Shown here one piece after another: positions 1,896 through 62,724 of a stretch of 64,000 nucleotides of DNA. The DNA comes from Prevotella sp. (GTDB taxonomy: Bacteria; Bacteroidota; Bacteroidia; Bacteroidales; Bacteroidaceae): assembly GCA_017940545.1 (NCBI GenBank), contig JAGAYI010000009.1, positions 16,852-80,851 of the forward strand. Direction: 5' to 3'. Made by a program: the position numbers and the translations under genes. The notes beneath the pieces were generated by a model that saw nothing but the letters and a program-made list of their open reading frames with translations, did no database searches and was not told where the DNA came from. Position 1 is the stretch's first letter, and each line of letters starts with the position of its first letter.

Positions 1896-1936
1896 TTTTC
1901 CTGCATCCACTCGATGCCAGACACCCCCGTCAAGAC

Positions 1937-2079
1937 TGGGAGAAACTGCCGGGGAAACGGGGAGAAACTGCCGGACTGACGGGGAGAGAGTGCCGGGGAG
2001 TCTGGTAAACAGGCGGCCGTGTCAAACAAATGACACGCACGTGTCATGATCTTGACACGGGCGTGGCACATTCTTGACA
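1937..2079 (-). repeat. 22-bp-period intergenic element, copy A (minus orientation)
   Basis: Read on the minus strand from 2079: three GC-rich units (2058-2079, 2036-2057, 2014-2035) of exactly 22 bp, an 11-bp spacer (2003-2013), then three 22-bp units (1981-2002, 1959-1980, 1937-1958) with the core CGGCAGTTTCTCCCC. The first three carry inverted repeats such as GTGTCA...TGACAC, unlike the arms of the other copies, while the second three match the other copies closely. A TATCTTTG box lies upstream at 2154-2161. No coding sequence fits this stretch. Confidence 0.85.
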
Positions 2080-2153
2080 CGGGCGGGTGCACCCCTTATG
2101 TTTCCCCATCTGTTTCGTCATATCGGGAGACCCGCGATTGTCTTTCTTGTTTG

Positions 2154-2161
2154 CAAAGATA
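2154..2161 (-). promoter_or_regulatory. -7 box preceding element A
   Basis: TATCTTTG on the minus strand, about 75 bp upstream of the first 22-bp unit of element A. There is no minus-strand gene before 1179, so it would drive a non-coding transcript through the element. Confidence 0.5.
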
Positions 2162-26226: not shown

Positions 26227-26234
26227 TACCTTTG
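26227..26234 (+). promoter_or_regulatory. -7 box preceding element B
   Basis: TACCTTTG followed by GCACATACAT. The same string, with one base changed, precedes element D at 62391. No coding gene follows on this strand, so it would make a transcript of about 300 nt ending at 26529-26565. Confidence 0.6.
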
Positions 26235-26251
26235 CACATACATAGTTTTCT

Positions 26252-26305
26252 GATTACTCAGATTATTCTGATTACTCAGATTATTCCGATTACTCAGATT
26301 ACTCA
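26252..26305 (+). repeat. Six tandem 9-bp repeats, GATTACTCA type
   Basis: GATTACTCA, GATTATTCT, GATTACTCA, GATTATTCC, GATTACTCA, GATTACTCA occupy 26252-26305 without gaps. Five units of the same kind precede element D at 62416-62460; none was seen by elements A and C. Confidence 0.9.
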
Positions 26306-26342
26306 GAAACAACCAGAAAAAACAACAGGTTTTCAGCGCCCG

Positions 26343-26484
26343 CTGCTATTACTTTCACCGCCCGCTGCTATTACTTTCAGCGGGCGCTGCTATTAGTTTC
26401 AGCGGCCGCTGAAACCCAGAGACCCCGGCAGTTTCTCCCGGCTTCCCATACTCTAACTCCCGCTTTCCCCGGCAGTTTCTCCCA
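26343..26484 (+). repeat. 22-bp-period intergenic element, copy B
   Basis: Three 22-bp units (26343-26364, 26365-26386, 26387-26408) ending CCGCCCG, GCGGGCG and GCGGCCG, with the last forming the 18-bp palindrome TTTCAGCGGCCGCTGAAA with what follows. After a 10-bp spacer (26409-26418) come three more 22-bp units (26419-26440, 26441-26462, 26463-26484), the first and third with CCCCGGCAGTTTCTCCC. Closely similar to element D, 36 kb away. Confidence 0.9.
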
Positions 26485-26528
26485 GTTTGCGGCACCCTGT
26501 CTTTCTGTCACCCTGTAGCTACCAATAA

Positions 26529-26565
26529 AAAAAACACATCTTTTTACGATCAAGATGTGTTTTTT
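26529..26565. terminator. Bidirectional intrinsic terminator between element B and the PAP2 gene
   Basis: AAAAAACACATCTT and AAGATGTGTTTTTT form a perfect 14-bp inverted repeat with a 9-nt loop. It can end a plus-strand transcript through element B or the minus-strand PAP2 transcript. Confidence 0.8.
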
Positions 26566-26633: not shown

Positions 26634-28409
26634 TCAGAAGTTGATAGTGAAGGAGCCTCCCAGAATGACGGTGTGGCGGTTCTTCTTGATGCTTTGCTCT
26701 TCCTGGAAATTCTCGAGTTCAAAGCCTAAATCCCTCAGATCGACGAGGCCATCGAGCAGATAACCGCCGGGGTTATAGGCCATGGTGTAGGTCTTGCGGG
26801 TAAGGTCGTAGTCAACAAACAGCTTCCAGGCGAAGTTGTCCTTATAGGCGTATGTCAGGGAGACACCCGTGCCAGCCTTGAACGAGTTACTGGCGCTCAC
26901 GGTGAAGTAGTCCCACGCACTATTGTAGGTGCCTATGTGGTCAATGCCGTCGAGATTTCCTTCGCTGTCGAAACGGTATTTCTTCAAGCCGCCCGACACA
27001 TCTGCCTCAAGACTCAGCTCCTGCATGACGCTTCTGCCGAAGAGCAGCTTGGTGCCAACGGCAAACTTGTTGGAGATGGGCAGGTTGAAGTACGCACCCA
27101 GGTCGAAGGCAAACTCGGTGAGGTGGTCACTCTGGATGGTGAAATGATAGTCGTCAACGAGTCCTGGCTTGTAGTCAGGCTGCCCCGGTGTCCCCACACT
27201 TTCCATTAAGCTGGAGAGGTCAGCGTCCTGCTTGAGGTAGGAGACAGTGGCGAGCAGGTCTCCCTTAGCTCTATCGACAATACCGTCCCAGCCCTTGATA
27301 GGCGAAGTGTTGACACGCAAGCGGCCACCCACACCAAAATATTTGTTGAAGAAGTATGCACCCTCGACACCTACTGCCGTTGACGTTCCGAACTTGAGGT
27401 TGAAGCGGCCGTCGCCGTCGCCATCGTCGAAATAGAACTTGTTGAGGTCGAAGTCCATGTTTCTGGAGCCCCAGCCCATACCCATGGAGATGGAGAAGAA
27501 CGAGGGGTTCTCAATAATAGACTTGCCACCCGTGAGGTTGTCGCGCAACAGGCCCTTTCTGCCGAATATCAAGTCGCTGGCCACGTAGGCCAACTCGGTG
27601 GTCATGATGCCGATACCGGCGCCACAGATAACGTCGCTCACCCAGTGGGCATTATTCAGCACACGCATGACACCCGTCGCGGTAGCCGCACCGTAACCTG
27701 CCACGGAATACCAGGGGGAGCGCGTCAGACCGTACTCCTTGTGCAGGATAGTAGCTCCGGCGAACGACGTGGCAGTATGGCCCGATGGCCAGGAGTTGGC
27801 TGAAGTGCCGTTAGGACGCATTTCCTTTGACGTATATTTGATGGCTGTCACACTCCAGTCCATGAAGAAATAAGACATGACGGTAGTTGCCAGGAAGCGC
27901 CCCCAGTCAGAGCGTCCCTCCAAGCCGCCTACCTTCAGGCCCAGCGTCAACGCCGGTCCGAAGTACTGCAGATAGTCATCGACATCGGTCTTGAAATGTG
28001 TTACGAGCGAGTGTTTGTCCTGCTGTTTAAAGGCATGTTTCTCGCCTTTGGCAATCCATCCGGCGGCGAAGATAGGTATGCCGACAAAGGTCAGGTCGTC
28101 TAAGGGTTTGAAAGGCTTGATGCCCTCGTTGGTGTGGAGGAATGTCCAGTTCTCCTTTGACCACGGCAGACGGTCTTTTCGCACGAAGGTCACGGTCTTG
28201 CCGGTGTCTATCAGGCACTCCTTCCACCGGTTCTTCTTGAGTTTTGCCTCTATTTGTTCGTAAGTCAAAGTTGGCTGCTCTTCAACAGCCATCGTGTCTT
28301 CAATCTCTTCAGACACAGCCGTAAGACTACTGCAGAGAATAGTAAGGGCTATGAAAAAAAACCTCTTGACATGCAAAGCGCCTAATAATGATGAATGGAT
28401 TGTTTTCAT
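26634..28409 (-). CDS. PAP2-family phosphatase fused to an outer-membrane beta-barrel
   Basis: 591 residues. A signal peptide (about 1-33) is followed by a PAP2 domain with the complete signature: K191-x6-R198-P199, S209-G210-H211, R249-x5-H255-x3-D259. Family knowledge: these residues form a phospho-histidine acid phosphatase acting on lipid phosphates. From about residue 290 the protein changes into alternating amphipathic strands (FFSISMGMGWGSRN, TAVGVEGAYFFNKYFGVGGRLR, AFDLGAYFNLPISNKFAVGTKLLFG, LSYAYKDN-like) ending HTVILGGSFTINF, a typical barrel closing strand. This suggests a phosphatase held at the outer membrane by its own barrel. Divergent from the ArgE-like gene; TATCTTTG box at 28444-28451. 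Confidence 0.85.
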   Translation of the reverse strand: MKTIHSSLLGALHVKRFFFIALTILCSSLTAVSEEIEDTMAVEEQPTLTYEQIEAKLKKNRWKECLIDTGKTVTFVRKDRLPWSKENWTFLHTNEGIKPFKPLDDLTFVGIPIFAAGWIAKGEKHAFKQQDKHSLVTHFKTDVDDYLQYFGPALTLGLKVGGLEGRSDWGRFLATTVMSYFFMDWSVTAIKYTSKEMRPNGTSANSWPSGHTATSFAGATILHKEYGLTRSPWYSVAGYGAATATGVMRVLNNAHWVSDVICGAGIGIMTTELAYVASDLIFGRKGLLRDNLTGGKSIIENPSFFSISMGMGWGSRNMDFDLNKFYFDDGDGDGRFNLKFGTSTAVGVEGAYFFNKYFGVGGRLRVNTSPIKGWDGIVDRAKGDLLATVSYLKQDADLSSLMESVGTPGQPDYKPGLVDDYHFTIQSDHLTEFAFDLGAYFNLPISNKFAVGTKLLFGRSVMQELSLEADVSGGLKKYRFDSEGNLDGIDHIGTYNSAWDYFTVSASNSFKAGTGVSLTYAYKDNFAWKLFVDYDLTRKTYTMAYNPGGYLLDGLVDLRDLGFELENFQEEQSIKKNRHTVILGGSFTINF

Positions 28410-40396: not shown

Positions 40397-40516
40397 TGTT
40401 TTCTATTGATTAATTAAACGATTAACTTGTTTTGATATTGCGTCAGCTGCTCGCATCACTATTGCATACACAGAAAGAAGAAAATCGTTCAAAAAAAACA
40501 GGAGTACGCTACAGAC

Positions 40517-40658
40517 TGGGAGAAACTGCCGGGGAAACTGGGAGAAACTGCCGGGGAAACGAGGAGAATCTGCCGGGGAAACAGGAACACAGCGGCCGCT
40601 GTTAGAATGAACACCGCCCGCCGTTAGTTCTAACAGCGGGCGGTGTTCATTCTAACAG
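40517..40658 (-). repeat. 22-bp-period intergenic element, copy C (minus orientation)
   Basis: Three GC-rich 22-bp units (minus order 40637-40658, 40615-40636, 40593-40614), a 10-bp spacer (40583-40592), then three 22-bp units (40561-40582, 40539-40560, 40517-40538), of which the last two are identical. The outer GC units are exact reverse complements of each other, so the three together fold into one stem of about 28 bp with a single mismatch. A TATCTTTG box on the same strand lies at 40722-40729. Confidence 0.9.
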
Positions 40659-40721
40659 CGGTCGGTGTAATCCCCTTTTTCTTTTCGACTATCCGATAAG
40701 AGAAAGATAATCAATACTTTG

Positions 40722-40729
40722 CAAAGATA
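40722..40729 (-). promoter_or_regulatory. -7 box preceding element C
   Basis: TATCTTTG on the minus strand, 63 bp upstream of the first 22-bp unit and downstream of the glsB-like stop codon (40768). The position suits transcription of element C on its own rather than of any gene nearby; the next gene on this strand starts at 40396. Confidence 0.5.
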
Positions 40730-59645: not shown

Positions 59646-59717
59646 GGTCCCTTCGTCTATCGGTTAGGACGAGAGATTTTCATTCTCTAAAGAGGAGTTC
59701 GACTCTCCTAGGGACTA
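59646..59717 (+). tRNA. tRNA-Glu (UUC anticodon)
   Basis: A 72-base cloverleaf: acceptor GGTCCCT pairing with AGGGACT (one G-U), D arm with GTTAGGAC, anticodon arm GAGATTTTCATTCTC with anticodon TTC, T arm GAGGAGTTCGACTCTCC, then discriminator A. CCA is not encoded in the chromosome. Confidence 0.95.
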
Positions 59718-62390: not shown

Positions 62391-62398
62391 TACCTTTG
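62391..62398 (+). promoter_or_regulatory. -7 box preceding element D
   Basis: TACCTTTG followed by GCACATGCAT, as before element B. It lies after the gyrB terminator and before a minus-strand gene, so it can only start a non-coding transcript. Confidence 0.6.
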
Positions 62399-62415
62399 CA
62401 CATGCATCGTATTCT

Positions 62416-62460
62416 GATTATTCAGATTACTCAGAATATTCTGATTACTCCGATTATTCA
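62416..62460 (+). repeat. Five tandem 9-bp repeats, GATTATTCA type
   Basis: GATTATTCA, GATTACTCA, GAATATTCT, GATTACTCC, GATTATTCA, followed by GAAATAACC as in the copy at 26252 (GAAACAACC). Confidence 0.9.
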
Positions 62461-62495
62461 GAAATAACCAGGAAACAACAGGTTTTCAGCGTTCG

Positions 62496-62637
62496 TTGCT
62501 ATTACTTTCAGCGCTCGCTGCTATTACTTTCAGCGGCCGCTGCTATTAGTTTCAGCGGCCGCTGAAACCCAGAGACCCCAGCAGTTTCTCCCGGTTTCCC
62601 CTACTCTCACTCCCGGTTTCCCCGGCAGTTTCTCCCA
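62496..62637 (+). repeat. 22-bp-period intergenic element, copy D
   Basis: Three GC units (62496-62517, 62518-62539, 62540-62561), a 10-bp spacer (62562-62571) and three further units (62572-62593, 62594-62615, 62616-62637). The palindrome TTTCAGCGGCCGCTGAAA is the same as in element B. Substitutions between the two copies are few and mostly fall in the first GC unit and in the last block's second unit. Confidence 0.9.
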
Positions 62638-62724
62638 GTTTGCGGCACCCTGTCTTTCCGTCCTTGGAATGTAAGCAAGCAAAGCGACATAGTCAGGCAG
62701 AGCGCAAGCACAACGTAAACATCC

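Follow-up and report, generated by a model that had tools for sequence, protein, structure and literature searches.

Predicted operator arrays with an exact 22-bp period beside HU-HIG winged-helix genes in Prevotella, and their dispersed gene-less copies

In textbooks HU proteins figure as architectural proteins without sequence specificity, and HU of the type represented by PG0121 of P. gingivalis has no winged helix. The HU clades to which HU-HIG belongs were reportedly first described by Burroughs and colleagues in 2017; to our knowledge, what the expanded HU-HIG family does in Bacteroidetes has so far only been predicted. Plasmid iterons and ParB/parS arrays are tandem sites about two helical turns apart; the winged-helix or HTH proteins that recognise them are encoded close by. 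The arrays described here resemble them in the tandem spacing and in the nearby gene, but they are chromosomal and seem to have a private specificity for each gene.

Two further systems come close. According to PMC3116915, REPINs are dispersed palindromic DNA lying beside a cognate RAYT gene, form repeat groups that go with specific genes and are hairpin-capable. Our elements share all of these traits (dispersed palindromes, adjacent cognate gene, gene-specific groups, hairpin capability), but their partner is no tyrosine transposase and their architecture is exactly four by 22 nt. PMC3969353 reports that the HU protein PG0121 binds an unrelated 77-mer less well than a 77-bp inverted repeat that lies upstream of an operon. 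Here too an HU-type protein goes with an inverted repeat; however, in that account PG0121 is similar to E. coli HU, has one site and is described with no 22-bp period.

The window that we analysed is a stretch of 64,000 nt from Prevotella sp. (GCA_017940545.1, contig JAGAYI010000009.1, positions 16,852-80,851, forward strand), taken from an assembly of 2.22 Mb in 65 contigs that is 70.5% complete. A first-pass annotation had placed four intergenic copies of one plan in it, and on direct reading copies A, B, C and D are all at the positions claimed and have the claimed parts: a TAnnTTTG box is followed by GC-rich 22-nt units, which a short spacer separates from C-rich 22-nt units (Table 1). The GC-rich units, counted as three, are in fact four and palindromic, u1 beginning 22 nt earlier. 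A short spacer is present, but the proposed 10-11 bp must be replaced by 17 nt (18 in copy A), measured between the u4 centre and the first CCCC, and the three C-rich units are there, albeit with a divergent middle one in copies B and D. The 14-bp stem and T-run reported 3' of copy B also exist; since by eye the stem has no counterpart after copy D, it seems to lie outside the element, and it is probably the terminator for a convergent gene pair, one gene of which ends at 26634, rather than part of the element.

Table 1. Positions of the four copies and their parts (window coordinates)
Feature	Position	Strand	Remark
Copy B box TACCTTTG (-7 box type TAnnTTTG)	26227..26234	+	146 nt ahead of array axis
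Copy B four palindromic 22-nt units u1-u4	26329..26416	+	half-site class CGCTGAAA
Copy B tail, three C-rich 22-nt direct repeats	26423..26488	+	
Stem-loop and T run 3' of copy B	26528..26565	+	by eye; absent after copy D
Copy D box TACCTTTG	62391..62398	+	
Copy D four 22-nt units	62482..62569	+	class CGCTGAAA
Copy D C-rich tail	62576..62641	+	
Copy C box TATCTTTG	40722..40729	-	
Copy C four 22-nt units	40585..40672	-	class CGCTGTTA, long inverted repeat
Copy C C-rich tail	40513..40578	-	
Copy A box TATCTTTG	2154..2161	-	
Copy A four 22-nt units	2006..2093	-	class CGTGTCA
Copy A C-rich tail	1933..1998	-	

The same annotation had claimed an exact 22-bp period and predicted dozens to hundreds of copies per genome; the period holds, and the source genome has dozens of copies. 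A genome scan with the 17-base tail motif CCCCGGCAGTTTCTCCC, allowing at most one mismatch, gave 57 matches in the assembly against none for the reversed control, and the count of array loci came to 47, including a few truncated at contig ends; because the search began from the tail motif, through which the copies were first located, tail-less copies are under-counted in this figure. Lag 22 was the best period in 39 of 42 copies, the exceptions being L040, L055 and L065, and the mean self-match across 41 copies was 0.535 at lag 22 compared to 0.20-0.31 at other lags from 8 to 43. Related arrays were also found in other genomes of the genus. The exact tail pattern occurs in 6 of 119 genomes, the source and five with one match each; given that on inspection only G056 among these five carries a true element, the other four matches resembling coding sequence, the exact tail is nearly confined to the source species.

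A complete copy in the source genome consists of a TAnnTTTG box, a leader, GG(G), four 22-nt units, a spacer (17 nt from the centre of the last unit, 18 in one class) and C-rich 22-nt direct repeats. Each unit has a CGnnCG core with little or no variation among 33 aligned copies, and the arms fall into several classes, of which CGCTGTTA/CGCCGTTA, CGCTGAAA and CGTGTCA are the largest; the window copies span three of them, with B and D in one, C in another and A in a third. In 29 of the 33 arrays the reverse complement of unit 2 matches unit 3 better than unit 2 itself does (three are direct and one is a tie), so that the array has one overall dyad. The leaders of class CGCTGAAA (window 26240-26305 and 62405-62465, and loci L047 and L054) hold 9-nt repeats of GATTACTCA type and vary in length between copies, the 11-nt promoter phase nonetheless being kept. 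Several arrays also lie within a few hundred bases of the ends of contigs C5, C8, C16, C48, C52, C53 and C55, and for this reason the repeat may break short-read assemblies; the C48 and C52 ends share one array end.

The protein that recurs next to the arrays is HU-HIG: the adjacent gene, not the DNA element, matches PF18291 with 37.4 and 53.9 bits against a cut-off of 26.2. A covariance model of the element found matches in 13 of 75 genomes at E 0.01, a few no better than chance; at the better of these loci several arrays begin at the stop codon of genes that share a similar C-terminus, and other arrays follow unrelated genes, for example murF-, prfC- and rnc-like (names assigned by eye). PF18291 has 15 matches in the source genome, 14 of them above the cut-off. 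Arrays accompany four of the 15, exactly those with a C-terminal winged helix (wHTH), and the fetched loci of the remaining 11 contain none. The array stands shortly after the stop codon in three of the four HU-HIG-wHTH genes and about 200 nt after it in L109. A profile of the full HU-wHTH protein returned the same four intact genes and a fifth match, which is a remnant. The predicted structure model comprises an HU-like domain and a winged helix; the likeness to HU-HIG consists of profile membership together with these modelled parts. PADLOC and PHROGs gave no family for the two proteins examined, a PDB sequence search returned a designed protein alone (E 0.014), the Pfam description of PF18291 names no DNA site, and among the titles listed in a literature search there was none on a DNA site of HU-HIG or HU-wHTH proteins, nor any on 22-bp Prevotella repeats. 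Matches to ribosomal and ESCRT winged helices reflect the common fold only and were set aside as having no functional meaning. At L106 (G000:C14), 3' of the stop codon of an HU-HIG gene without a wHTH, there is a different long tandem repeat, GTCTGTTGTCCCGCAGAAATAAAGG...

The pairing of gene and array is widespread in the genus. The HU-wHTH profile matched 60 of 150 genomes, source included, and among 93 distinct loci 69 have the array downstream, in the interval from -60 to +600 nt around the stop codon, and eight shortly before the gene; none was found in the other 16, three of which end less than 100 bp past the stop codon. A set of named records, mostly Prevotella-type metagenome genomes, many of them ruminant by title, together with the isolate Prevotella sp. 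tc2-28, contributed 53 loci absent from the first set; 50 of these have an array and three do not, one of the latter ending 1 bp after the stop codon. Both surveys used a looser threshold than the initial scan of the source genome, and the background was two matches elsewhere in the named-set loci and one in 239 kb of shuffled DNA. As the loci are related, these figures do not stand for independent events. Across the wider order the profile matched, apart from the source, just 3 of 247 genomes; two of these three matches outside the genus have a 22-periodic array at a looser threshold, upstream of the gene. With one protein (L230) as query, a plasmid search gave no match and a phage search a single record, MT838260.1 (3423-4064, 24% identity, E 2e-7), which is a 5.5-kb human faecal record.

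Not only does the array adjoin the gene but its sequence also varies with the protein. Mean half-site distance rises from 0.19 to 0.59 with winged-helix distance, and a Mantel test on 69 pairs, obtained after a quality filter and the omission of six named loci, gave r 0.45 for half-site against winged helix and 0.43 against HU domain; some half-sites had been read in the wrong 11-nt phase. The partial value for the winged helix given the HU domain was 0.18, which 0 of 2000 permutations reached, and the opposite partial value (HU given winged helix), calculated without permutation, was 0.13. The distances of the HU domain and of the wHTH are themselves correlated (0.82), so the partial signal is small and part of the Mantel value is due to shared descent; an effect beyond it is present but modest. 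At the level of single helices, GLKRDSAK goes with GGGCGnnCGCCC or GnGCG in all nine pairs that pass the filter (L123, which has this helix and an off-phase half-site, was removed by it), LTPYMAQKWL with ATGACAnnTGTCAT at two loci and TTNYHARKLL with GCGACGGCCGTCGC at two. L141 (QLKRDSAQ) and L150 (GLKRDSARR) are without a GGGCG site, which argues against a simple code. In a hand-made table covering part of the loci, consensus sites differ within each of 13 genomes that have more than one gene, genome G119 having six genes and six different sites; in the source genome, though, L111 and L112 share the arm GTGTCAA.

The arrays also keep a fixed register with the promoter. The TAnnTTTG box is present in 32 of 41 source-genome copies scored; in the 30 copies tested it lies 90-187 nt upstream of the array axis, and all 30 distances deviate from an 11-nt grid by at most 2 nt, six copies having been left out beforehand and five more having no box. 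The boxes of two of the pre-excluded copies, L032 and L040, lie at -79 and -67, also on the grid, with an uncertain axis. When each of the 15 leader families contributes one value, R is 0.78 (p ~1e-4), and 11 is the best of nine periods tried. In distant clades the box stands between array and gene in seven of the eight upstream-array genes, where the array is therefore probably outside the transcript, and these seven arrays have the same phase despite lying on the opposite side of the promoter. Among 21 loci outside the source genome only five have a box within the stretch scanned: at L293 and L079 the phase is exactly 9 and at L103 it is 10, whereas L078 (10 and 3) and L294 (7 and 1) have one misfitting box each. 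In the pooled set all 21 values are no more than 2 away from phase 9 (R 0.81); this set was hand-assembled after the pattern had been seen and consists of one hand-typed value per leader family (that of its first member), four values that represent the seven upstream arrays and, from loci outside the source genome, L293 and L079 alone, L103, L078 and L294 being omitted. It thus seems that RNA polymerase and the protein bound to the array hold a constant angle to each other, and phase-locked promoter control is the leading, but unproved, candidate for what the arrays do. Given that most of the arrays at these 21 loci have no nearby box, promoter control cannot be their sole role.

Given that the arrays adjoin HU-HIG-wHTH genes, that the site follows the protein and that the promoter holds an 11-bp phase, the better supported of the possibilities raised by the first-pass annotation is an array of protein sites on the same face of the helix. 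We believe that the elements are cognate operator arrays of the HU-HIG-wHTH proteins, a prediction from sequence to which we assign a probability of about 0.74, and the best reading is that such operator arrays come with dispersed gene-less copies. Among the observations that count against it, gene-linked arrays mostly follow the stop codon, an unusual place for autoregulation, and the whole array is also an inverted repeat with 55% linker pairing, which simple operators do not need.

That inverted repeat is the starting point for a reading in RNA, in which the transcribed array would form a single hairpin, about 100 nt long, and the C-rich, G-poor tail would load Rho, the two together forming a 3' end or a small RNA; we regard this as improbable. 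In an alignment of 33 of the 41 source-genome rows (eight short, truncated or divergent ones omitted, and L055, cut by a contig end, already out), one long hairpin does fit, with 86.4% of cells paired against 70.2% when shuffled and a covariation score of 0.400 against 0.140 (none of 500 shuffles reached it; slid versions did not exceed 0.107). Three local hairpins do less well (79.7%, 0.377), with a clear deficit at columns 25/40 and 69/84, and that fold was rejected. However, neither pairs changed on both sides (22 against 20.3 shuffled; 88 of 500) nor further pair types (285 of 500 shuffles) are in excess, and the pairing is largely a consequence of palindromic units set head to head. The linkers pair less than the arms (55% against 81% Watson-Crick), although still more than simple protein sites need; the array lies upstream of eight HU-HIG genes, seven of them with a -7 box in between; and the 11-bp promoter phase requires no RNA. 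The composition of the tail speaks for the RNA reading. In the 100 nt after downstream arrays C is 0.32 and G 0.17, with C exceeding G in 59 of 65 and 48 of 50, and there is a lag-22 peak; a control 300 nt further on has C 0.24 and G 0.25 (C above G in 27 of 71), and the equivalent stretch after the eight upstream arrays is not C-rich (C 0.17, G 0.14). We infer that the tail is the part most likely to act as RNA, for instance as a Rho-loading site, and downstream arrays are likely to yield a transcript, with a hairpin that is possibly relevant. The earlier proposal of an undescribed ncRNA family stands in so far as the window has no Rfam 15 gathering-score match beyond a tRNA gene at 59646-59717, and at the lax threshold only weak matches appear, the best at copy B being a miRNA model with 23 bits against 74; a stand-alone ncRNA is nevertheless not the best reading. 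Nor do all copies have the layout of an intrinsically terminated small RNA gene, with promoter and terminator: nine of the 41 copies scored have no box, of B and D, the two compared by eye, only B is followed by a terminator-like stem, and the distant-clade arrays lie upstream of the promoter.

Gene-less copies are dispersed in the source genome and in its relatives. On C33 and C54 the start and end of an HU-HIG gene are kept and its middle is missing, with array and tail following, and by eye L078 and L082 are similar internal-deletion remnants in relatives. Copy A shares with L049 a sharply bounded stretch of 257 bp at 98.4% identity. A single-contig relative has four arrays of one class, one gene-linked and three gene-less, and the axis of one of the latter lies 152 bp from the -7 box of a gene that by eye is glycoside hydrolase-like. 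An orthologue search with the gene adjoining copy B gave 68% identity over a long stretch at best. Deletion forms that retain both ends, the near-identity and sharp ends of copy A and L049, the patchy presence across the genus and the occurrence at several genomic sites would also suit mobile DNA, that is, a selfish unit of HU-HIG gene and array whose gene-less copies are miniature derivatives, like REPINs of RAYT genes. We find this unlikely, since copy A and L049 show by eye no target duplication or terminal repeats, a separate MITE with ~40-bp inverted ends at some copies could account for their spread, the conserved phase speaks for a function at rest, and we know of no nuclease or transposase fold in HU-HIG proteins. 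At L034, L042, L038 and L044 the array lies in or beside this inverted-end element, whose ends start with TAACGTGAGTTCGA; it has both ends visible in L034 only and presumably is an IS630-type MITE with a TA target. A RAYT was rejected as partner: the 70%-complete genome has a single Y1 transposase (PF01797), which by eye has its own hairpin repeat. This match (G000:C33:2258-2617, L311; apparent repeat GGGGACAGGTT...AACCTGTCCCC) adjoins one HU-HIG remnant with its array. At L066 (G000:C58) the gene ahead of a tail-only fragment is, by eye, RelE/ParE-type toxin-like. The many dispersed arrays, the HU-like domain and the finding that most of the relatives' arrays looked at have no nearby -7 box would suit sites that the protein bridges or marks for nucleoid folding or partition, with no promoter control, and a partition role for this HU clade has reportedly been proposed. 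The promoter phase argues against such chromosome-organising sites, as do the six sites for six genes of G119, which one chromosome does not need, and we hold them to be improbable as well.

Returning to operator arrays, we propose the following model. The HU domains would dimerise, allowing two winged helices to read one palindrome. Four dimers would then sit on one face of the DNA, two turns apart, with the HU parts bending it, and the resulting nucleoprotein complex would control the neighbouring promoter or transcript. According to PMC5683647, HU binds junctions avidly; together with the inverted-repeat binding of PMC3969353, this makes it plausible that the HU domain acts on an extruded cruciform of the array. 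The gene-less copies, that is A, B, C, D and most others, would be further candidate binding sites, some of them visibly internal-deletion derivatives of the gene that keep promoter, array and tail.

The operator-array reading would account for a repeat family with 47 loci counted in the source genome. More tentatively, and with the odds against it, the whole may be a self-linked recognition system, in which an HU-wHTH protein encoded beside its private array re-invents its site while diverging and seeds the chromosome with miniature promoter-and-array copies that put new genes under phase-locked control. If this is true, one genome carries several mutually insulated site codes. As most of the genes adjoin their own predicted binding site, their function is testable, and the dozens of protein-site pairs are material for a recognition code. 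In conclusion, the genome sequence by itself seems to reveal sequence-specific, gene-linked sites for a whole branch of the HU-HIG expansion.
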